From Ornithinibacillus caprae (GTDB lineage Bacteria; Bacillota; Bacilli; Bacillales; Amphibacillaceae), in assembly GCF_009728145.1 (NCBI RefSeq), contig NZ_WOCA01000001.1, positions 1-64,000 of the forward strand: a stretch of 64,000 nt of DNA, read 5' to 3'. The position numbers and the translations under genes were made by a program. Positions 11,835-50,116 of this stretch are shown one piece after another. Position 1 is the first letter of the stretch. Each line of letters starts with the position of its first letter. The notes under the pieces are model-generated. The model had not been told where the DNA came from and ran no database searches. It saw only the letters and a program-made list of their open reading frames with translations.

Positions 11835-11866
11835 AGCTGCTATCTTTTGGTAGCAGTTCTTTTTTT
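11835..11866 (+). terminator. ytoP terminator
   Basis: The stem ctgctatc / ggtagcag with a TT-rich loop is followed by seven T residues. A partial copy of the terminator-linked repeat begins directly after it. Confidence 0.82.
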
Positions 11867-11910
11867 GGCAGATAGGAAAACTTTCCTATCTAACATAAGT
11901 GCGATTGGTA
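11867..11910 (+). repeat. Terminator-linked repeat, copy A (partial, first hairpin only)
   Basis: The copy opens ggcagataggaaa and continues ctttcctatct...cataagtgcg, matching the 5' half of copies B-D. The arms gataggaaa / ctttcctatc form a hairpin. The second half (TGGCGAATGCCA hairpin and AAGTTTTCT end) is absent. It starts right after the T-run of the ytoP terminator. Confidence 0.75.
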
Positions 11911-11947
11911 AAAGATACATGGAAACAGTGGTGTTAGGAGTGTTGTT

Positions 11948-12451
11948 ATGAAAATAATAGTTGGGTCCAAAAATCCCACCAAAGTACAAGCTGTTAAAGA
12001 CGTATTTCCAAACAATGAGGTAAAGTCATTGAGTGTACCATCTGATGTATCATCACAACCTTTTTCCGATGAGGAAACACGAATCGGTGCTATTAATCGT
12101 GCAACCCAGTGTGCACAATCTGCTCCAGGTTCAGTGGGTATTGGACTAGAGGGTGGTGTGATGTATGTTGAAAATCAATTATTTCTTTGTAATTGGGGTG
12201 CCTTGGTTACATCTACAAATGAAATCTATACAGCTAGTGGAGCGAGAATTTTGTTACCCAAAGAAATCAATGATGAATTAACATCAGGTGTGGAATTAGG
12301 AGATATTATGGACAGGTATGCTAAACGTAATGGAGTTAGGCATAAAGAAGGTGCGATAGGTATTTTCACAAACGATCTCGTATCAAGACAGGAAATGTTT
12401 AAGCATGTTGTACTTTTATTAAGAGGGCAAAGGGAGCATTGGGAAAAATAA
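11948..12451 (+). CDS. Inosine/xanthosine triphosphatase, YjjX family (DUF84)
   Basis: A 167-aa protein of the DUF84/YjjX family, which hydrolyses non-canonical purine nucleoside triphosphates such as ITP and XTP. The opening KIIVGSKNPTKVQAV is the family signature for phosphate binding, and SQPFSDEETRIGAINRA contains the conserved E-x-x-x-GA-x-x-RA element. GIGLEGGV is also conserved. The ATG follows TTAGGAGTGTTGTT. It lies between ytoP and ytoQ. Confidence 0.88.
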   Translation: MKIIVGSKNPTKVQAVKDVFPNNEVKSLSVPSDVSSQPFSDEETRIGAINRATQCAQSAPGSVGIGLEGGVMYVENQLFLCNWGALVTSTNEIYTASGARILLPKEINDELTSGVELGDIMDRYAKRNGVRHKEGAIGIFTNDLVSRQEMFKHVVLLLRGQREHWEK

Positions 12452-13672: not shown

Positions 13673-13833
13673 ATGATTGAAACAAGCTTAAATCATCGAT
13701 ATGATAGTATTAGGGAGTGTTTAGGTAGATAAGGGAGTATAGCTTTCTTATGCTGCAATATAAGTTTTCTATACTATATAGTTTGCTTATGAAATTTACT
13801 CCATAAGGTTTTGTTGAACTAGGAGGATATACA

Positions 13834-20561: not shown

Positions 20562-20593
20562 AAAAGAGTCTGTACAACACAGACTCTTTTTTT
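20562..20593 (+). terminator. murC terminator
   Basis: The perfect 12-bp stem aaaagagtctgt / acagactctttt is followed by more T residues. Confidence 0.9.
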
Positions 20594-20595
20594 GA

Positions 20596-20680
20596 ATATA
20601 GGAAAGTAAAAACGTCCCTATCCTGCATCAGCGTAACGAAGGTATTCACCATAAACGCATGGCGAATGCCAAGTTTTCTA
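20596..20680 (+). repeat. Terminator-linked repeat, copy B
   Basis: The copy runs ATAGGAAAGT...cctatcctgcat...accataaacgc-ATGGCGAATGCCA-AGTTTTCTA. It aligns along its whole length with copies C and D and starts 3 bp after the murC terminator, in the same orientation. Two hairpins are possible: ggaaag/ctatcc-type at the 5' end and tggc/gcca at the 3' end. Confidence 0.8.
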
Positions 20681-20787
20681 ATAAAATAGAGGATTTTCAT
20701 ACATAATTGTCGAAATAAATAATAGAACACGTTATAGTAGTGGTATACTAAAACTAAAATTAACTCATATTAAAAACTAGTTGCTAC

Positions 20788-21928: not shown

Positions 21929-21967
21929 AAAAAACATGCATAAATCACATCGATTTGTACATGTTTT
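21929..21967. terminator. Long hairpin, probable terminator downstream of the FtsA-like gene
   Basis: The arms aaaacatg / catgtttt with an inner aaatc / gattt stem, A-run on one side and T-run on the other. The plus-strand T-run is the better one; the minus-strand side could end the 22065-24191 transcript. Confidence 0.6.
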
Positions 21968-21973
21968 TCTATT

Positions 21974-22057
21974 GGCAGATAGAAAAGTATAAACTTTCAT
22001 ATCCTTCATAAGTGCAACTAAGCCCACCATAAAAGCCTGGCGGATGCCAAGTTTTCT
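21974..22057 (+). repeat. Terminator-linked repeat, copy C
   Basis: This is the most regular copy: ggcagatagaaaagt...aaactttcatat...cataagtgcaactaag...accataaaagcc-TGGCGGATGCCA-AGTTTTCTA. It begins 7 bp after the hairpin at 21929-21967, in the same orientation as that hairpin's better T-run. Confidence 0.85.
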
Positions 22058-22064
22058 AAAAAGA

Positions 22065-24191
22065 TTACTTTATTTCTAATTGATCTCCAGTTTGTACCGT
22101 ATCATAAAAGGTAGCTTCCTGATTGTTTTTATATAGTTTAAAGTTTGCCCCTATATTTGCTAAGTCAATATCAACATAACGAAATACATCCTGAAATATA
22201 AAAGCTTCAAGCTTACGATTTTTTACTTGAATATGATCTCCAGGCTTAATTGTGCTATCTTCTTCTAACTCCGTTCCGTCCTTTATAATGTGAAGTTTCG
22301 GTTGTTTCATTTGTGTGGGTTGTCCATTGAACGTAACAGTGATGGTATCCCAATATTCCTTCTCTATATTAACTAATAGATCTTTAACCGTCACAAGTCT
22401 ACTAGATGTTATTACTAATTGATCATTATGTTTTAGTTGGTGATCAACGGATGTACGCTTGTTATTAATTAGAATTTGGTTTTCACCTTCTGCTAGCATC
22501 ATTTTTTTATTATTTAGATAAATAGTAAATTCTTTACTGGATGTGACTTTTTCTTCTCCAATTATCTCTAAGAAATCATGTACAGTTTTTGGTTGCTTTA
22601 ACTCTATACGGTCTCTATCTTGCACAACGTAATCACTTGGTCGCAGTTCTCCATTAACAAAAACCTTTGTTTTGAGCTCATATGATCTATTATTATAGAA
22701 AATATTTGTGGATGGTAATTCCTCAATTAGATGAGCAAGTGTTACATTTGCTGCATGTCCATCTAGTCCCGGTTCAATAACAATGTGATCTCCATTTTTA
22801 ACAATTGTATCAACGGTCGCAGGAGCTTCATTTAAAAGAATAGTAGGTGCTCCACCTAATTCTCCAGGAAGGGTAAGTTCTTTCCCATTTAGCGTGATCA
22901 TGGATGCCATACCTGGCTTACCGTATAATTTGTTAATTTCTATCCCACCTTGGACTAGACAATCTCCAACTGTTAATTTCTTCATTTCAAACATTCTTAT
23001 TACCTGTTTGTTTACATGTACAGTTATATAATGTATTGGATTTTGTTCAGCAACTATTGCGATACCGATAGGAGTTACAAAGTCAGGACCACTTGGTAAA
23101 TTATCCGTTTTATTTAACATTTGTATCGCATCAATTCCTCTAACTGCTACACGATTAATAGGCAATTGGAGTTTATTTGCAAGTGCTGTTGTTAGTTCAG
23201 GTGTTAGGCTTCCCCCGCCAACCAGCATTACAGCTTTTGGGGCAGTAGCGTTAAGGTTAAATATTTCTTGTGTAATTGCATTAGCAAGCTTCTCTATACT
23301 AGGTTGAATATCTTTTGCTAATGTGTCATAGTCAATGGTTGTTTCAAATCCTAAGATATCAGAAACAATTGCTTGCCCTTCATTAACGATTTGTCTTTTA
23401 ATTTTTTCAGCAATTGGATAATCAAGGAGATAATGATCACTTATTGCCTCCGTGATTTCATCTCCAGCTATTGGAACCATTCCATAAGCGACTACAGTTC
23501 CGTGGTTCGTGATTGCTATATCACTAGTTCCTGCTCCAATGTCTACTAACGCAACATTTAATCTTCTCATGGATTCTGGTATTAATACATGAATAGCTGC
23601 AATAGGTTCAAGGGTTAATGCTTCCATTTCTAAGTCTGCTCTGTTTAATGCAGAAAGAAGTGATTCAACTACAATTTTAGGCAAAAAGGTAGCAATTATT
23701 TCTACTGTAGCTGTATCACCACTTTGGTCAATAAGTGAACCGATTTGTTGCCCATCTACCTTATAATGCAATACCGAATAACCAACACAATAATAATTCG
23801 AATAATCATTTGAAGACTTTTCTGACGCTAACTTCAATTGAGCTGCGTGAACTGCACTAAGTTCTAAATGCTTAATGGTTTCTTTTTCGGTTATGGTTTG
23901 CTTTTCTAAAGAAATGGTAGCCTCAGATTCTACGGTTTTTAATGATCTACCAGCAGCAGCAACACTAACTTTATGTATGTCACCATGTTTTTGTTCTAAT
24001 GTTTCTTTCACTTCTTTTATAATTTTTGCTACTTCAACTACATGATGGATTTGCCCATCATGCATCGAGCGAACTTTATGTTCTTTCATGCAATAATCAA
24101 CCAATGTATAGGATTCATTATTTTTTTGTAGAATAATTCCAGTTACAGACCTTGTGCCAATATCAAGGGCAAATATATATTCGTTCAACAT
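22065..24191 (-). CDS. FtsA/PilM-like ATPase-fold protein, 708 aa
   Basis: The first ~370 residues have the actin-like ATPase fold of FtsA/PilM: FALDIGTRSVTGIIL (phosphate 1), VALVDIGAGTSDIAI (phosphate 2) and AVMLVGGGSLTPEL (adenosine motif), with an inserted subdomain between. The remaining ~340 residues are beta-rich and contain repeated segments of the type (hydrophobic)-x-x-GDxIxI (for example GDHIVIEPG, GDHIQVKNR, GDQLEIK), perhaps two to four small domains. Bacilli carry similar genes often labelled cell division protein FtsA, but the true FtsA is usually encoded elsewhere beside ftsZ. No membrane segment is obvious. A GGGGG ribosome site lies somewhat far (13 nt) upstream. Function is unknown. 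Confidence 0.8.
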   Translation of the reverse strand: MLNEYIFALDIGTRSVTGIILQKNNESYTLVDYCMKEHKVRSMHDGQIHHVVEVAKIIKEVKETLEQKHGDIHKVSVAAAGRSLKTVESEATISLEKQTITEKETIKHLELSAVHAAQLKLASEKSSNDYSNYYCVGYSVLHYKVDGQQIGSLIDQSGDTATVEIIATFLPKIVVESLLSALNRADLEMEALTLEPIAAIHVLIPESMRRLNVALVDIGAGTSDIAITNHGTVVAYGMVPIAGDEITEAISDHYLLDYPIAEKIKRQIVNEGQAIVSDILGFETTIDYDTLAKDIQPSIEKLANAITQEIFNLNATAPKAVMLVGGGSLTPELTTALANKLQLPINRVAVRGIDAIQMLNKTDNLPSGPDFVTPIGIAIVAEQNPIHYITVHVNKQVIRMFEMKKLTVGDCLVQGGIEINKLYGKPGMASMITLNGKELTLPGELGGAPTILLNEAPATVDTIVKNGDHIVIEPGLDGHAANVTLAHLIEELPSTNIFYNNRSYELKTKVFVNGELRPSDYVVQDRDRIELKQPKTVHDFLEIIGEEKVTSSKEFTIYLNNKKMMLAEGENQILINNKRTSVDHQLKHNDQLVITSSRLVTVKDLLVNIEKEYWDTITVTFNGQPTQMKQPKLHIIKDGTELEEDSTIKPGDHIQVKNRKLEAFIFQDVFRYVDIDLANIGANFKLYKNNQEATFYDTVQTGDQLEIK

Positions 24192-30705: not shown

Positions 30706-30807
30706 TATTTCACCACCAGCTAATATCCTTATACCTCTCTTACTCTGTATTATACAGGATAATCATCTAAATTTTTAGTGTTTTTCTAGATCGTCAAATT
30801 ATATATG

Positions 30808-30894
30808 AGAAAACTTGGCAATTGCCAAGCCTTTATGTCGGATGCCATAGTTGGACTTATGCGGAATAGGAAAGATTTAAACATTCCTATCTGT
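30808..30894 (-). repeat. Terminator-linked repeat, copy D
   Basis: On the minus strand the copy runs acagataggaatgtt...ctttcctattccgcataagtccaacta...ggcttGGCAATTGCCAAGTTTTCTC. It begins 5-7 bp after the terminator of the minus-strand penicillin-binding protein gene, in the same orientation as that transcript, like the other copies. Confidence 0.82.
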
Positions 30895-30898
30895 TAAT

Positions 30899-30932
30899 AA
30901 AAAAAGAAGAGGCGATTGCCTCTTCTTTTTAA
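30899..30932 (-). terminator. Terminator of the penicillin-binding protein gene
   Basis: A 13-bp perfect stem (aaaaagaagaggc / gcctcttcttttt) with a GATT loop; the minus strand continues with T residues. It overlaps the stop region. Confidence 0.9.
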
Positions 30933-33892
30933 GAATTATTATCTCCGGTTTCGTCTTGATCTTCAGAATCAGGTGGTTCTTCTGTTCCTTCATCTTGTTC
31001 GCTGTTGTCATTGTTTCCTTTATTATCTTTATTATCTTTGTTATCTTTATTCTTCCCATTATTACCTGAACTTTTATCTTCCTCATTATCTTTTTTATCT
31101 TCTTCTTTTGGTTCAGAAAAATCACCGATAACAATTTCTTTAGATGCAGAGGATTCCATTCCAAAGTAATCAACTGCTTTTACGTGATAAACAGCCTTGT
31201 TACTAGGGATAGAAAATTCAGTTTCAACTGTGCTTCCAACCAATTCAAATTTTGCATCTGGATTTGCTGCACGATATATTCGGTAACCGACAACATCTTT
31301 ACTACTAGATGCTTTCCAAGATAATGTTTTTCCAGAATTATTTAATGATGTTGGGGCAGATGGTGCTTTTCCATCATCTTGAATTTCGGATCCTAGATCA
31401 TTACTTGGTAAACTAATTTTCTCCCATGCACTACGGTTCACATTAGGGAATAGCTGTGTTATGTCACCTAGTTTGTCATAACCATTTCGTTTTAAGAATT
31501 CAGGGTTAAATGTCAGACCATCTCCATCAACAAATTCCTTTGGAGTATTTGGCCCTGCAATAACTGCCTTTCCATTAACCATGACATAAGCTCCACGCAT
31601 TAAGCTGTCATCTACCTCAGTAGGTACAAATTTAGCATTAAAGAGGTCAGTGGTTACTAGCCCAGCTTCCGAACAAAGATCAGATGGAAGCATTCCAGAA
31701 ATTGCACAAATGCTTCGAGATACAATACCATCTGGACGTTCAAAGCTATTGCTTGGTGCCATTAACTCAGGGTTGATTTCTGTAGCTGTATTGACTAACT
31801 CTGCCCAAAGCTTCATATTTCTGTGACTATAATACATATCACAGTCTAGACACTGCTGTTGCGGTATATTGTAACCTAGCCACGTACTAAATGTAACATT
31901 TGGATTTGACCCTACAAAATGAATATCCCAACGATCTTGGGAAGTACCTGTCTTTCCATACCAGTCAACTCCAGGGTGGCTTAATTGTGACTTCACATAA
32001 CTACCAGTACCGTTTGAAATTACATCACGTAACATATCAAGCGTTAAATAACTTGTTTGTGGTGAAAAGACTTCAACTGGCTCTGGTTCGTGTTCATAAA
32101 TTACTTCACCATCACTTGTAGTTATTTTTTCTATCATATAAGCATCGACAAATTTTCCACCATTGGCAAATGTTGCGTATGCATTTGTGTTTTCTTCAAT
32201 AGTAATACCTCGTGTGGTTCCACCTATCGAAAGGGATGGATTAGCGTATTCATTTTCGTCTAAAGAAGTAATGCCCATTTTTTCTAGGTATTCTTCTACA
32301 GGATTATCATTCATTATTTCTATATATCCTTTAATGGCCGGGATGTTATAGGAATTTGCTAAGTTCGTACGAGTAGATAGAATACCATGAAAACTTCTAT
32401 CAAAGTTAGATGGTTTAATATTAGTACCTGGATATGTCATTTCCACGTCAGCTATAGGCGTTCCGGGTTGAAGTACTCCTTTTTCCATTGCTGGAGCATA
32501 CACTAGCAATGGTTTCATTGTACTACCATTTGATCTTAATGCCTGTGTAGCATAGTTATATTGGTCTTCATCATTGAAATCACGACCACCTACAAAGCTA
32601 ATAATTCTACCTGTATTATTCTCAATTAACGAACCAGATACTTGTACTTGCTGCGTTATTTCTTTAACTTCTCCAGTTATAGGGTCTTTGACAGGTCCAG
32701 TCCAATCTGGCCCATAATGCTTATAGTTTTTGACGATTTCTTGAAATGCATCATAGATTTTTTTATCAATTGTTGAATGGATATGGTATCCGTTTTGACG
32801 AAGATCTCTCTCTGCTAACATTTCAAATTGCTGATTTAATTCATCATCTTCTTCTAGATCTTCTAATGAGTAGCCGTCTTCTTCAGCTAGTTTTTCTTTA
32901 ATAATGTCAGTTGCTCTTCGAACTAACTCATCCTGTACATGTGGATAGTTTTCATCTCTTGTTTTATAATCTGTAACAAAATCTTCCGTAATATCATATT
33001 CCAAAGCCTCTTGGTATTCTTCTTCGGTGATATATTCCATTTCGTACATTCTGTGTAGTACGACTTTCATCCGAGTTAAACCAGGTTGAATTCCTTCTTC
33101 ATCTTTTAGTCCACCACCACTTGCAAAAGGGGTGTATTGAGAAGGACTTTGGGGTAGACCCGCTAAATAAGCTGCTTGAGCAATGTTAACTTCATCAGCA
33201 TTTAGCCCAAAAATCCCTTGTGCAGCAGTTTGAATTCCTGCGATATTTCTTCCAGAGGCATCTCTTCCGTAAGGGACGATATTTAAGTAAGCCTCTAAGA
33301 TCTCATCTTTTTCAAAGAAACGCTCTAATCGAAGTGCAAGTAAAATTTCTTTTGCTTTTCTTTCAAATGAAACTTCATTCGTTAGAATTTGATTCTTGAT
33401 TAACTGCTGTGTTAGTGTACTACCACCAGATTTCATATCTGAGTTAGTAAACTCTTGTAATAATGCACGTACAATTGCTTTTGGAACAATACCATTATGC
33501 GTTTCGAAATATTCATCTTCTGTAGCAATTACTGCATCTTTTAAGGTCACAGATATTTCATCTAATGTGGTTTCTTCCCTGTGTATATCAGAACGAATGT
33601 CTCCTAGATATACATTATTAGCAAAGTACAAACGGGAAGTTTCTTCATAATTATAGATATCTTTTTCCATGCTTTCATAAGCACGAATTGGCTCATCTTT
33701 AACTAGGGAAGCAAAGTAACCTGCTCCTACACCTACACCAAAAAACATGCCGATAAACCCTATAATTAAGAAGAACAAAACAATGTTCCATACTACATCA
33801 TATGTTATCCTTGAAGTACGTTGGACTTTTCCAGTTTTCCAATACTCACTGACCTTCTTACTATACTTCTGGAGTAAATTTTTAAAATTCAC
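30929..33892 (-). CDS. Class A penicillin-binding protein (PBP1-type transglycosylase/transpeptidase)
   Basis: A bifunctional peptidoglycan synthase of 987 aa. A short cytoplasmic N terminus and one membrane anchor (about residues 40-65) precede a GT51 transglycosylase domain with AVIATEDEYFETHNG and GGSTLTQQLIKN. A penicillin-binding transpeptidase domain follows, with the SxxK motif in NGSTMKPLL, SxN in NSYN, and KTG in YGKTGTSQD. Near the C terminus lies a fibronectin type III domain (about 830-920), and the tail is acidic and low-complexity with KDN repeats. This order resembles PonA. I chose the GTG at 33892 because AGGAGG lies 7 bases upstream; the frame opens at 33916. It occupies the place of acsA relative to B. 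subtilis. Confidence 0.92.
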   Translation of the reverse strand: MNFKNLLQKYSKKVSEYWKTGKVQRTSRITYDVVWNIVLFFLIIGFIGMFFGVGVGAGYFASLVKDEPIRAYESMEKDIYNYEETSRLYFANNVYLGDIRSDIHREETTLDEISVTLKDAVIATEDEYFETHNGIVPKAIVRALLQEFTNSDMKSGGSTLTQQLIKNQILTNEVSFERKAKEILLALRLERFFEKDEILEAYLNIVPYGRDASGRNIAGIQTAAQGIFGLNADEVNIAQAAYLAGLPQSPSQYTPFASGGGLKDEEGIQPGLTRMKVVLHRMYEMEYITEEEYQEALEYDITEDFVTDYKTRDENYPHVQDELVRRATDIIKEKLAEEDGYSLEDLEEDDELNQQFEMLAERDLRQNGYHIHSTIDKKIYDAFQEIVKNYKHYGPDWTGPVKDPITGEVKEITQQVQVSGSLIENNTGRIISFVGGRDFNDEDQYNYATQALRSNGSTMKPLLVYAPAMEKGVLQPGTPIADVEMTYPGTNIKPSNFDRSFHGILSTRTNLANSYNIPAIKGYIEIMNDNPVEEYLEKMGITSLDENEYANPSLSIGGTTRGITIEENTNAYATFANGGKFVDAYMIEKITTSDGEVIYEHEPEPVEVFSPQTSYLTLDMLRDVISNGTGSYVKSQLSHPGVDWYGKTGTSQDRWDIHFVGSNPNVTFSTWLGYNIPQQQCLDCDMYYSHRNMKLWAELVNTATEINPELMAPSNSFERPDGIVSRSICAISGMLPSDLCSEAGLVTTDLFNAKFVPTEVDDSLMRGAYVMVNGKAVIAGPNTPKEFVDGDGLTFNPEFLKRNGYDKLGDITQLFPNVNRSAWEKISLPSNDLGSEIQDDGKAPSAPTSLNNSGKTLSWKASSSKDVVGYRIYRAANPDAKFELVGSTVETEFSIPSNKAVYHVKAVDYFGMESSASKEIVIGDFSEPKEEDKKDNEEDKSSGNNGKNKDNKDNKDNKGNNDNSEQDEGTEEPPDSEDQDETGDNNS

Positions 33893-33968
33893 AATAATAC
33901 CTCCTAAAAATTCCATTATTAATTATAGCATAAGGGCTTTGCTGCGGGTATAGATAAACACTAAATTC

Positions 33969-34001: not shown

Positions 34002-34019
34002 GAATAATTGAACATACAT

Positions 34020-34257
34020 GCGACGAAGGAATTAAGTAGTGTTGCAAATCCCTGTTACAAGAGAGCTAGCGGTTGGTGGGAGCTAGTACATATTTGCAGA
34101 CGAAATACGCTCTGGAGCATCTTTCTATTGAGTTAAAAACTCTATAGAAGGACGGTGAAGTCATCGTTAACAACCCCAAAGTGGCAATTATATTGCAACA
34201 AGGGTGGTACCGCGTGTTAAACTCGTCCCTTATTATATTGAGGAACGAGTTTTTTTA
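34020..34257 (+). promoter_or_regulatory. T-box riboswitch leader of tyrS
   Basis: The T-box sequence AGGGTGGTACCGCG is intact at 34201-34214. It is followed by a terminator hairpin (arms aaactcgt and acgagttt) and a T-run ending at 34257. The upstream part can fold into Stem I; a UAC codon at 34106-34108, just before gctctggagc, is the likely specifier for uncharged tRNA-Tyr. When tRNA-Tyr is uncharged the antiterminator forms and tyrS is read. Confidence 0.93.
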
Positions 34258-34288
34258 ATGGATTTAAAAAAAGAGGAGTGTGGGATTA

Positions 34289-47061: not shown

Positions 47062-47426
47062 TAATTAATACACGATACGAACGTGTTCATTTAGCGCGAG
47101 GCAGTACAGATCTTCGCAAATCTATAGATGGTCTGGCAGTCATTGTAAAGGAATGTTTCAACCTTGATCCATTTTCTCCTTGCTTATTTGTCTTCTGTAA
47201 TCGGAAGCGAGATAAGCTTAAAATCCTTCAGTGGGAGCACAATGGGGTTTGGTTGCATTACCGCAGATTAGAACGTAGTACCTTTCAATGGCCATCTGCG
47301 GAGGACCAAGCACCAATGGATATCAGTCCTCGCCAACTGCGTTGGCTGTTAGATGGGCTGCCTATTGACCAAAAACAAGCACACCGGGTTCTTTTTCGGT
47401 GTGCCCGGCATGGGTACAGACTCTAG
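47058..47426 (+). CDS. tnpB: IS66-family TnpB, C terminus altered by the group II intron
   Basis: A 122-aa TnpB (IS66 Orf2) protein. The core is typical: LARGSTDLRKSIDGLAVIVKE, LFVFCNRKRDKLKILQWEHNGVWLHYRRLE and RQLRWLLDGL. The last nine codons or so (after about 47398) come from the 5' end of the group II intron, so the natural end is replaced unless the intron splices. The essential core is complete. Confidence 0.85.
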   Translation: MIINTRYERVHLARGSTDLRKSIDGLAVIVKECFNLDPFSPCLFVFCNRKRDKLKILQWEHNGVWLHYRRLERSTFQWPSAEDQAPMDISPRQLRWLLDGLPIDQKQAHRVLFRCARHGYRL

Positions 47427-49285
47427 GGTGAAAGTTCGAACAGTGAAGGCAGTAGTAGCTGTAGCTTAAGACAAGGTCATGAAGGGTGACCTCCATGGCT
47501 GAAGGCAGTCGGCGGCAAACTTCTGCTCCGAGGGACACGAATCTCATACAAGGCTAGGTGGCACTGGATGAGTCTGCCGAACAAGACAAAGTCCTTACTG
47601 CCGAAGATGTCACAGAGTAAATGAGGCGGAGACATGGAAGGAAAGTCTGTACTCTTACCCGGGGAGAATCTGTCGGCACGCCGTGCCTACACGGTAAGCG
47701 TACTCGAAACGGGTGCGTTGAACGACAGACGTCAGCAGAGGTCATAGTACTTAATAGCTTAAGATGTTAGGGAAGGACTGAACCAATTATGGAGAGTCAC
47801 GCCTTGGCGTACATACCATTCATTGAAACAGAAAACGTTAGATGCCTCATCTAGTGGAGGAAGTAATGAATGTACTGGGGACATTAGAGAGGGTGGAGAA
47901 TATGTATGACACAAGAAGGAAAGGGACTTACGCAGGAGGAAATATCGATGTTAATGAAACGAGTCGTCTCAAATGAAAATGTCTTACTTGCCGAAAAGCG
48001 AGTAAGGAAAAACAAAGGAAGCCACGGAGTGGATGGCATGGACGTAAAATCCCTACGACCTTACCTTCACGAGAACTGGGTCCTAATAAGACAACAGTTA
48101 CTAGAGGGCACCTATCAACCTCAACCCGTTCGCCGAGTCGAAATCCCAAAAACCAGGTGGTGGGAAGAGAAAATTAGGAATCCCAACAGTAACGGACCGT
48201 TTTATTCAACAGGCAATCTCTCAAGTTTTAACAAAAGTATACGATCCCACCTTTTCGGAATGTAGCTATGGATTCCGTCCAAAAAGACGAGCACATGATG
48301 CAGTCAATAAAGCACGCAACTACATTAAGGAAGGTTACCGATGGGTAGTCGATATGGACTTAGAGAAGTTCTTTGATAAAGTTCATCATGACCGATTGAT
48401 GTCGACGCTCAATAAACGCATACAAGACCCAAAACTATTGCGACTCATCCGCCGTTATCTCCAAGCAGGAGTATTAGAGCAGGGACTTGTCAGCCAAATA
48501 CCGAAGGGACTCCGCAAGGAGGTCCTTTGAACCCATTACTATCTAACATTGCGTTGGATGAATTGGACAAAGAATTAGAGAAACGTGGACACAAGTTTGT
48601 TCGTTATGCAGATGATTGTAATATCTATGTGCGGTCGAAAAGAGCGGGCGAAAGGGTAATGAAAGCAATAACTAACTTTATCGAGAAGAAGTTAAAACTA
48701 AAGGTCAACCGTGAGAAGAGTGCGGTAGATCGACCTTGGAAACGAAAGTTTCTGGGGTTTAGTTTTACTTCGAACAAGAAACATCCTAAGGTCAGATTAT
48801 CGAAAACATCAATACAGAGGTTTAAGGCAAGGGTTAGGGAAATAACTTCTAGGAAGAAATTTATGAAGATGGAAGATCGAATCCGTAAACTTAATCAGTA
48901 TCTTGTTGGTTGGATAGGATACTACCAACTTATAGATACAACAACTGTATTAAAGAATCTTGAGGGATGGTTAACTCGTAGGTTGAGAATTATTCTGTGG
49001 AAAGAATGGAAGAATCCTCGGACGAGAGTCCGAAATCTCACCAAACTAGGCGGGGGAGGAAAATCCTATGAATGGGGAAACTCTCGTAAAGGATACTGGC
49101 GAGTAGCCAAAAGTCCAATTCTACACAAAACCCTTGGTACCGCCTATTGGCGAAAACAAGGGCTAAAGAGTTTAACTTTGAGATATGAAATTCTACGTTC
49201 GACATAATCTGGAACCGCCGTATACGGAACCGTACGTACGGTGGTCTGAGGGGGAAGGAGGTTAGTCACCTCCCCCTATCTCAAT
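47399..49285 (+). mobile_element. Group II intron inserted at the tnpB-tnpC junction
   Basis: The 5' end GTGTGCCCGG matches the GTGYG start of group II introns. About 500 nt of structured non-coding RNA precede a reverse transcriptase/maturase gene. The 3' end has a domain V candidate (about 49212-49246, arms accgccgta / tacggtggt) and a domain VI hairpin (about 49248-49280), and ends ...CAAT. A 7-bp hairpin (cacaccg / cggtgtg) spans the 5' junction. The maturase has no HNH endonuclease, as in class C or D introns. Ends are estimated to within a few bases. Confidence 0.85.
47906..49207 (+). pseudogene. ltrA: Group II intron reverse transcriptase/maturase, two frameshifts
   Basis: Three pieces in three frames make one maturase of about 433 aa. 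The first runs to VEIPK and shifts at an A-run (48148-48152; five A where four restore the frame). The second holds RKLGIPTVTDRFIQQAISQ and VVDMDLEKFFDKVHHDRL and shifts near 48496-48498 (three A where four restore the frame). The third holds EGTPQGGPLNPLLSNI, the catalytic YADD, and the X domain, ending YWRKQGLKSLTLRYEIL. Both shifts lie in A homopolymers and cancel out, so a sequencing fault or programmed slippage are alternatives to real decay. Confidence 0.85.
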
Positions 49286-49297
49286 TATACTAATTTT

Positions 49298-50116
49298 ATG
49301 GAAAATAATGCGCAAACAACTCAAGACACAATTGAATATTACAAAGAGCGCAATGAAAAGCTTGAAATGGAAAAGGAAGCATTGGAGGCAAAACTAAAGT
49401 GGTATGAGGAGCAATTACGTCTAAGCCAACAACGGAGATTTGGTTCTTCCAGTGAGAAAACCAATCCCGACCAACTATCCCTTTTCAATGAAGCTGAGGA
49501 TACGGCAGATTCAACTGTGGAAGAGCCAACAGTTGAAACGATTACATATAAACGCAAAAAACAGCGCGGAGAACGTAAACAAAAACTTGAAAACCTGCCT
49601 ACAGAGACGATTGAATATCGTTTATCTGAAGAGGAACAGATTTGTTCGTGCTGCGGTGGTTCACTCCACGAAATGAGCATGGAAGTGCGTAAAGAATTGA
49701 AAGTTATACCGGCCGAAGTAAAAGTCGTAGAGTATGTTCGACACGTCTATAGCTGCCGTCATTGCGAACGCAATGAAATCGAAACACCTATTAAAACAGC
49801 GTCAATGCCAACTCCTGTATTTCCAGGCAGTTTGGCATCTCCATCAGCAATAGCATATACGGTGTCGTAGAAGTATGTAGAAAGCATGCCCCTGTACCGG
49901 CAGGAAAAGCAGCTGAAACGCTTGGGCGTATTTATCCCGCGTCAAACATTAGCTAACTGGATTATGCATGGCGCGAATGCTTGGCTTCAGTTGATTTGCA
50001 ATGCGATGTACAGGCATCTCTTACAACATGATATCCTGCATGCAAACGAGACATCATTGCAGGTTCGGAAAGAACCTTTTTGGTCCCAATTTGGTCCCAA
50101 TTTGGCCCCAAATTAG
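49298..50116 (+). pseudogene. tnpC: IS66-family transposase TnpC, nonsense codon and 3' truncation
   Basis: The N-terminal half (coiled-coil start, then a zinc-finger-like CSCCGG...CRHCE segment) reads well to a TAG at 49868-49870. In relatives this position is a Gln (VSQKYVE), so one C-to-T change made the stop. The frame continues with KYVESMPLYRQEKQLKRLGVFIPRQTLANW up to HANETSLQV, where the family's catalytic HADET has Asp changed to Asn. Similarity ends at about 50080, followed by three 11-bp repeats. The DDE domain is thus mostly missing and the gene is dead. Confidence 0.85.

Follow-up and report, generated by a model that had tools for sequence, protein, structure and literature searches.

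The bcr elements of Bacillus cereus are small interspersed repeats. Among described systems, those that come closest to the repeat studied here are the palindrome-associated transposable elements (PATEs) of Haloquadratum walsbyi (PMC3119063). In the IS200/IS605 family of insertion sequences, the orientation of the elements is described as one that "recapitulates" the direction of replication (PMC5371812). Rho-independent terminators are the landing sites of an RNA-based element: bacterial-C group II introns are described as inserting directly behind them, with a bias to one replication strand (PMC8919778).

Here we report on a repeat in a stretch of 64,000 nucleotides from Ornithinibacillus caprae (contig NZ_WOCA01000001.1, positions 1 to 64,000), referred to below as the window. 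The preliminary description of this stretch had noted an element of about 85 bp at four places, each time behind an intrinsic terminator and in the orientation of that terminator, and had offered two explanations, a mobile repeat that targets terminators or a structured element acting on read-through transcripts. Our analysis favours a modified form of the first: the repeat is probably a miniature mobile element that prefers the T tracts of terminators and is carried as single-stranded DNA.

The repeat in the window and in related genomes

A covariance model was built from 35 copies of the own genome, B, C and D among them, and the window was scanned with filters off. The E-values of B, C and D given below are partly by construction, since all three are among the training copies of the model. 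The features are as follows.

11835..11867, + strand: terminator with a T run ending in TTG, 5' of copy A (sequence; program-made terminator scan)
11868..~11910, + strand: copy A, a half copy with the left hairpin and the start of the linker, 3' of the terminator of the M42 peptidase gene (model match 11865-11950, weak at E 0.027, with good alignment in the first half only; sequence; gene)
13725..13773, + strand: fifth copy, internally deleted, left hairpin GTAG..CTGC fused to the right tail AAGTTTTCTAT (model match 13722-13774, E 0.056; sequence)
20562..20593, + strand: terminator and T run, target of copy B (sequence; called by folding at -14.4 kcal/mol)
20594..20681, + strand: copy B, full (GAAT..CTAA), 3' of the terminator of the Mur-ligase gene (model match 20591-20683, E 7e-14 as a training copy; empty-site boundary rule; gene annotation)
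21931..21974, + strand: hairpin resembling a terminator, A/T-symmetric, with the T-rich target of copy C (sequence; -12 kcal/mol)
21975..22059, + strand: copy C, full (GCAG..CTAA) (model match 21972-22061, E 7e-13 as a training copy; empty-site boundary rule)
30806..30894, - strand: copy D, full (ACAG..CTCA), 3' of the terminator of the PBP gene (model match 30804-30897, E 1e-11 as a training copy; empty-site boundary rule; gene annotation)
30895..30930, - strand: terminator and T run of the PBP gene (30929-33916, - strand), target of copy D (sequence; -16.8 kcal/mol)

The repeat described from the four places is real, in full at B, C and D and by half at A, as judged by the covariance model, by blastn and by a pattern search. 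The latter two serve as independent tests because the model was trained on B, C and D. A blastn search of the own genome with copy C alone as the query gave 41 matches (including C itself and one at E 0.3), the best non-self match having an E-value of 3.6e-26, and a right-end pattern of 20 bases, in which at most 2 mismatches were allowed, matched at 58 places versus 0 for the reversed control. Copies A, B, C and D each lie 3' of a terminator and in its orientation, as first described; by eye, no terminator stands directly 5' of the fifth copy. The fold-based caller called the terminators of B, C and D. A separate terminator scan lists that of A without those of B, C and D, which it perhaps skipped because their stems run into the T run. 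Copy C is antisense to the gene at 22065-24191 (- strand), and the hairpin before it is probably also the terminator of this convergent gene.

In the own genome (G000; 4.16 Mb in 40 contigs), the model gave 143 matches at E 0.1 and 120 at 1e-3, a whole-genome count of about 120 copies. The distribution among relatives is patchy: the element occurs in 17 of 61 genomes, G000 included, at E <=1e-3 and in none of the other 44, with at least 70 matches in G000, 59 in G024 and 53 in G033. In a search at the level of the order with stricter filters, a match passing E 1e-6 was found in 10 of 397 genomes. Among the matches listed in a pattern scan of named genomes were those in Virgibacillus, Oceanobacillus, Lentibacillus, Pullulanibacillus, Fredinandcohnia, Metabacillus, Peribacillus, Pseudogracilibacillus and a Sporosarcina MAG. 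The 90-base consensus had no match in PLSDB or INPHARED at E 1e-5, and the exact 23-base right-end pattern was absent from IMG/VR. No description of the repeat came up in searches of the open-access PMC literature.

Ends of the element and its insertion site

The element runs from GCAG to TTTTCTAA over about 88 nt, and the consensus from aligned copies places it as GCAGATAGGAAAGTATAAACTTTCCTATCCTGCATAAGTGCAACTAAGGCATTCRCCATAAAGGCTTGGCGAATGCCAAGTTTTCTAA between TTR and T. To look at the site before insertion, the flanks of 230 copies were joined without the element and compared with the collected loci; 56 alignments span the join, mostly self or tandem. The natural empty sites show a clean insertion after TTR with no target duplication. 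At one of them, V. litoralis (L125) is occupied and V. subterraneus (L126) is empty at the join of TTTTTCTCTTG and GGTTAAAC, the two sequences agreeing by 97.5% over 399 bp with no gaps. The reverse case, with L126 occupied and L125 empty between CTCTTTTTTA and T, has 91.5% agreement over 401 positions and 11 gaps, six of them near the junction. In Oceanobacillus halotolerans, the element sits inside another dispersed repeat, between CTTG and TCGGGGG, and an empty copy of that repeat is found in L119. This site fixes the element ends as GCAG and CTAA, whereas the two Virgibacillus sites leave an ambiguity of one base. Two paralogous places in the own genome (L023 versus L067, L336 versus L321) also resemble empty sites, with small gaps at the junction. 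The repeat is mobile, being polymorphic between close species and matched by empty sites. In O. halotolerans, a dispersed palindromic repeat, cagcgcctaccccctcgaggtcataag...ggcttatgcttgtcgggggtgaacaaggcgc (L119, L123, L131), has been a landing site of the element several times.

The left-flank logo of 119 copies is T-rich, with T at 55-78% from -8 to -4 (76-78% at -7 to -5), T at 96% at -3 and at 81% at the next position, and R (G or A) at -1. The right-end logo is inflated, as many loci were collected by the exact right-end pattern. In own copies found by blast alone, for which the end was not used in choosing, the exact TTTTCTAA right end is present in 23 of 30. Judged by its letters, this right end is the same in character as the T-rich target (TTTTC-TAA). 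In the head-to-tail arrays of L171, L175 and L166, TTTTCTAA is directly followed by GCAG, the element's own end serving as the target. Logo and tandem junctions agree that insertion is oriented and takes place 3' of a short sequence similar to the right end. A variant group was seen in L265, L268 and L269 (G371, G201 and G208), with one copy per genome collected and ends reading TTTTCTTTA or similar rather than TTTTCTAA.

The element is predicted to fold into two hairpins

Four copies were folded as single-stranded DNA. Each of them gave the same pair of hairpins, and the z-scores versus shuffles ranged from -5.4 to -7.4. The left hairpin, GCAG-ATAGGAAAG...CTTTCCTAT-CTGC, starts at element base 1. 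It is followed by the linker ATAAGTGC and by the right hairpin, AACT-AA-GGCATTCRCC...GGCGAATGCC-A-AGTT, after which comes the tail TTCTAA. For the left half, a fold of <=-3 kcal/mol was obtained with 113 of 145 copies versus 6 of 100 shuffled ones. A central hairpin TGCA-TAAG-TGCA was also considered; in the DNA folds, the left hairpin extends to GCAG..CTGC and takes its place. Some copies are longer, about 125 nt in L190 and L193, and have an extra G+C-rich stretch inside the left hairpin; such copies are found also in L116 and L173.

The pairing was examined across copies. In the 35 own copies, 87.4% of stem cells are paired versus 34-46% with the partners slid, and 29 cells are changed on both sides, where shuffles give 13.9 on average. 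Of the five covariation measures in the own copies, two were not above shuffles, namely the number of pairs with both-changed cells and that of further pair types (231 and 381 of 500). The core right stem gave a clearer picture over 186 copies of many genomes, with 93 both-changed cells where 200 shuffles reached at most 50; when the own copies are left aside, the remaining 120 give 45 versus 22 for the right stem. Examples of the exchanged pairs are GGCATTC/GAATGCC, GGCTTTT/AAAAGCC and, in L265, GGCTTATC/GATAAGCC.

The preliminary description had closed the element with a TGGC-GAAT-GCCA hairpin. In its longer form, CTTGGC-GAAT-GCCAAG, this hairpin is conserved, but it has 0 both-changed cells in the own copies and 9 in the larger set versus a shuffle maximum of 7. 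The rival 10-bp right stem GGCATTCRCC/GGCGAATGCC does have both-changed cells. RNAalifold at default settings returned no consensus structure for 115 other-genome copies, 66 own copies and one further alignment. With relaxed penalties it picks the CTTGGC-GAAT-GCCAAG right-hand hairpin, and copy D alone, folded as RNA, forms a right hairpin of this type. On these predictions, both right-hand folds may matter. The pairs are broken in many copies, which is more in keeping with a mobile element whose copies decay than with an RNA that is maintained.

Copies are enriched behind terminators but not confined to them

The full copies analysed number 122, with 39 own ones and 83 from named genomes, and a same-strand terminator was called at 62 of them. 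In 51 of those 62, the T run starts 3-8 nt before model position 1, and same-strand calls farther upstream are rare. The opposite strand has a smaller cluster of 24 calls at 20-39 nt upstream, which is expected because the same hairpins are read from the other side. Copies without a terminator stand behind CTCCTTTT and further tracts rich in T or in pyrimidines; by eye, some of these tracts resemble ribosome-binding sites read in antisense.

How far a plain preference for T tracts would account for the terminators was quantified with matched controls. Reconstructed targets carry a terminator in 56 of 114 cases (the copies, out of 122, with both ends located), versus 482 of 2280 intergenic sites matched by an 8-nt target score made from these same sites and 93 of 3000 random intergenic sites. 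With the score taken from other genomes, the own genome has a terminator at 57 of 113 copies versus 349 of 1553 matched T tracts, resulting in an odds ratio of 3.5 (p 5e-10). This set comprises the 113 copies placed of 120 typed (E <1e-3; 80 of 84 planned stretches) and the 1553 of 1695 control draws that had both neighbours, with control target scores >=0 and weaker occupied sites matched to the weakest of these. With the score taken from the own genome, the other genomes have a terminator at 40 of 86 copies versus 439 of 2230 controls.

An alternative for this part of the analysis is that the terminator link is a by-product: any T tract would be targeted, insertions behind terminators would survive best, and the hairpin would not be recognised. 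The T-rich logo is without a conserved hairpin sequence, copies do stand at CTCCTTTT and other pyrimidine tracts, and terminators already make up 21-22% of the matched T tracts, compared with 3.1% of random intergenic sites, all of which is in line with such a by-product. However, the excess persists when the surroundings are held alike, at sites that follow a sense gene (39 of 63 copies versus 196 of 543 controls, p 1e-4) and at sites with a convergent neighbour (13 of 20 versus 79 of 220, p 0.015). We rate the by-product explanation at a little short of an even chance. The terminator link is real, partial, and partly explained by T-tract targeting. The residual excess may come from recognition of the hairpin, from T runs longer than the 8-nt score captures, or from better survival; from the excess over plain T tracts, we infer a target preference beyond survival alone.

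These results modify the picture from the window. The proposal of a mobile repeat that targets terminators holds as to mobility, orientation and enrichment over matched T tracts, but it covers about half of the copies (57/113). The relation seen at four out of four places in the window overstates the general rule, the other copies lying behind plain T- or pyrimidine-rich tracts.

Orientation follows the replication strand

The replication direction was inferred from the GC skew of 8-20 kb stretches only, and this skew correlates with gene strand, so the position of the element was compared with that of the genes. In 20-kb stretches of the own genome, the element is on the G-rich strand in 96 of 113 copies, and the called genes of the same stretches are on that strand in 1057 of 1429 cases (74%). 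When matched for target score, orientation of both neighbours and terminator, 71.4 copies are expected on the G-rich strand, and 0 of 20000 simulations reach 96. The bias is clearest in three classes whose gene direction cannot explain it. With both neighbours antisense, 11 of 18 copies are on the G-rich strand versus 64 of 460 controls; with divergent neighbours, 11 of 12 versus 158 of 330; and with convergent neighbours, 14 of 20 versus 99 of 220.

The other genomes were represented by 86 full copies on 100 of 105 loci (>=6 kb). There, 67 of 86 copies are on the G-rich strand versus 54.1 expected (p 1.5e-4), and the divergent and convergent classes together give 19 of 24 versus 348 of 719. 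In the non-terminator class with both neighbours antisense, no strand bias was seen in these genomes (1 of 11 versus 87 of 757 controls), perhaps because a skew over 8 kb is dominated by the local genes.

The G-rich strand that runs with the fork is the lagging-strand template. On this strand, both the T tract and the hairpin strand of the element would be exposed in single-stranded form. Apart from the one class without bias in other genomes, the orientation of the element, as read from GC skew, follows the lagging-strand template. The fixed orientation noted at the outset is real, and we attribute it to a strand-specific T-tract target together with the replication-strand bias.

Search for a mobilising enzyme

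Y1 genes were searched in 24 copy-bearing genomes (at least 22 of them distinct, G000 included) and TnpB in 8 of these, and 107 Y1/TnpB loci were examined with flanks of 1.5 kb on each side. None of the 107 loci has its Y1 or TnpB gene bracketed by element ends, and in none of the examined loci do copies lie on both sides of a Y1 gene. Four of the 24 genomes gave no Y1 match at all (G024 with 59 copies, G160, G208 and G432). Single copies do occur near such genes: one lies about 0.5 kb downstream of the Y1 locus L365 (G067), and a reversed one lies downstream of TnpB in G000 (L070/L072, the same gene). In L262:1360-2872 (G029), a 454-aa ORF is preceded, at a distance of about 60 bp, by a full copy that shares its orientation; this ORF has a weak, below-cut-off TnpB-like zinc-ribbon match, and no copy or right end stands downstream of it.

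Several candidates were set aside. TnpB elements as parents have different right ends in the 5 loci inspected. The arrangement in L172, considered as a composite transposon, seems rather to be a contig that breaks off at a repeat on either side, and by eye none of its ORFs is a transposase. The 266-aa REP-type Y1 of L061:1435-2235 (G000:C22, about 272.7-273.5 kb) is flanked on both sides by its own unrelated repeat, gggacaagggacctgacccc and variants, in a REPtron-like arrangement. Autonomous copies, with a gene between the two ends, were not noticed in the collected loci.

A further Y1 protein of G000, of 191 aa (G000:C22:418646), is called by NCBIfam as a REP-associated tyrosine transposase at 81.3 bits (cut-off 80), and its motifs NHFH..YIHLNP resemble those of subclass 2.1. 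This protein would be the candidate enzyme if the element were a REP-type repeat mobilised by a domesticated TnpA_REP. The account of subclass 2.1 gives it a coverage of 14.9% in its table and reports no REP-like partner or known REP for it; the GCAG/GTAG foot of the left hairpin is reminiscent of the REP foot GT[AG]G and of the "double foot" REPs in the same source (PMC6006769). Of 185 copies, however, 137 have the foot GCAG and only 8 have GTAG, and the element has two dissimilar direct hairpins rather than a REP with an inverted REP. No copy lies within 1.5 kb of the 191-aa Y1 gene. Its homologues occur in 13 of 17 genomes with the element and in 25 of 44 without it (p 0.24), which gives no significant tie between the two. 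We regard a REP-type origin as unlikely.

RNA-based routes

Insertion behind terminators, a strand bias and the lack of a target duplication are also compatible with a route like that of group IIC introns, in which a small RNA would be reverse-spliced or reverse-transcribed behind terminator hairpins on the lagging-strand template. We consider this route very unlikely. The window copies have no Rfam match at the gathering score, and three other copy-bearing loci have no group II match at E up to 5. Other Rfam families gave sub-threshold matches only in these three loci, up to E 5; a PrrB_RsmZ match in L265 (E 0.03, sub-threshold) lies beside the copy, just touching it. The ends of group II introns are GTGYG..AY, unlike the GCAG..CTAA of the element. 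About half of the copies are without a called terminator, and one hairpin of the element starts at base 1. By eye, the group II intron of the window has no hairpin-plus-T-run directly before its start.

That intron, at 47400-49300, is seen through matches to Rfam D1-D4 and Intron_gpII. Between these matches, the plus strand has only short ORFs, of 119 and 226 aa, so the intron-encoded protein may be broken. The window also holds a T-box leader at 34014-34233 (Rfam, 123.5 bits), ahead of the ORF at 34280, and a Bacillaceae-1 RNA at 189-256, between the end of the 23S and the 5S rRNA gene.

The least probable explanation, and a very improbable one, is that selection keeps the element in read-through transcripts as a structured RNA or a back-up terminator; an element acting on such transcripts was the second proposal of the preliminary description. 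In its favour, the 3' hairpin of the element itself drew 48 terminator-like calls among 122 copies, and the pairing of the stem cells in the 35 own copies is high. Against it, the upstream gene is antisense to the copy in 30 of 113 cases, close species differ in the copies they carry, RNAalifold is empty at default settings, and the element inserts in tandem and within another repeat.

Proposed mechanism and comparison with known systems

Oriented and duplication-free insertion, a target like the element's own end, two hairpins and an orientation that follows replication suggest a single-strand transposition of the IS200/IS605 type. We put the probability at about 70% that the repeat is a non-autonomous, PATE-like mobile element of about 88 nt that moves as single-stranded DNA in the manner of IS200/IS605 (Y1 HUH). 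In such a mechanism, the top strand, when single-stranded, would fold into the left and right hairpins, and a HUH-type enzyme would act on it in trans, presumably by way of a single-stranded DNA intermediate. The element would then be joined 3' of a T-rich stretch ending in TTR, in one orientation and without target duplication, on the exposed lagging-strand template as deduced from GC skew. The terminator T runs of genes co-directional with the fork would be frequent targets and presumably harmless landing sites. A variant of this reading is possible but doubtful, namely that the repeat stands for a widespread Bacillales family of mini-elements without an IS200/IS605 parent, which would be moved by an orphan Y1 of subclass 2.1, another HUH enzyme or a single-strand DNA recombinase and would recognise, as its target, the terminator hairpin plus T run on the lagging-strand template.

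The family is cleanly bounded and recently mobile, as it differs between close species, and its target, strand bias and hairpin ends can all be tested. Its main interest lies in the missing mobiliser and in the testable target preference. If the enzyme were an orphan subclass 2.1 Y1 protein, that class would gain a substrate. The target preference might also offer a route to directing insertions behind genes in Gram-positive bacteria.

In its features, the element is nearest to the PATEs. Both are without coding capacity, have palindromes near both ends, lack terminal inverted repeats and target duplication, and are polymorphic, the PATEs between strains (PMC3119063). For the element, the palindromes near both termini are given by the four DNA folds and the right-stem covariation, and its length is too short to code. 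Whereas PATE ends are described as resembling those of IS605-type transposons (PMC3119063), no IS605-type transposon with matching ends was found for the element among the 107 loci with their 1.5 kb flanks, and a parent may lie elsewhere. The element also differs in being bacterial, in its length of about 88 nt, in its T-tract or terminator target and in having the left palindrome at the very first base. It appears to work like an IS200/IS605-derived PATE, with incomplete membership, as the parent insertion sequence was sought and not found. Classical MITEs are farther away, since the element has neither terminal inverted repeats nor a target duplication.

Like the IS200/IS605 elements IS608 and ISDra2, the element has hairpins near both ends, an oriented 3' insertion and no duplication (PMC8266576); its orientation follows replication as theirs does (PMC5371812), and its target resembles its right end. 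Unlike them, it has no tnpA or tnpB, and its target is a T-rich tract with TTR rather than a fixed short word. As the left hairpin begins at base 1, there is no room 5' of it for a left guide of the IS608 type, and target choice may work differently. With REP and BIME sequences it shares being short, high in copy number and intergenic and having a hairpin with a tetranucleotide foot (PMC6006769, PMC8266576), and its own genome has REP-type Y1 genes. It departs from them in its two different direct hairpins, in a foot that is mostly GCAG instead of GT[AG]G, and in copies that do not flank a tnpA_REP gene or the other Y1 genes examined. The BOX, RUP and SPRITE repeats of pneumococci (PMC10969869) and the bcr repeats of B. 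cereus are likewise small interspersed repeats of Firmicutes, compared here by description only.

The likeness to group IIC introns is one of location: both land just behind intrinsic terminators with a replication-strand bias (PMC8919778), whereas the element has no Rfam intron RNA match, no reverse transcriptase, different ends and, in half of its copies, no called terminator. A DNA element may thereby have arrived, by convergence, at the safe haven of group IIC introns. Should the doubtful reading of a separate Bacillales family prove true, the element would be a DNA-level counterpart of the RNA-based terminator targeting of these introns.
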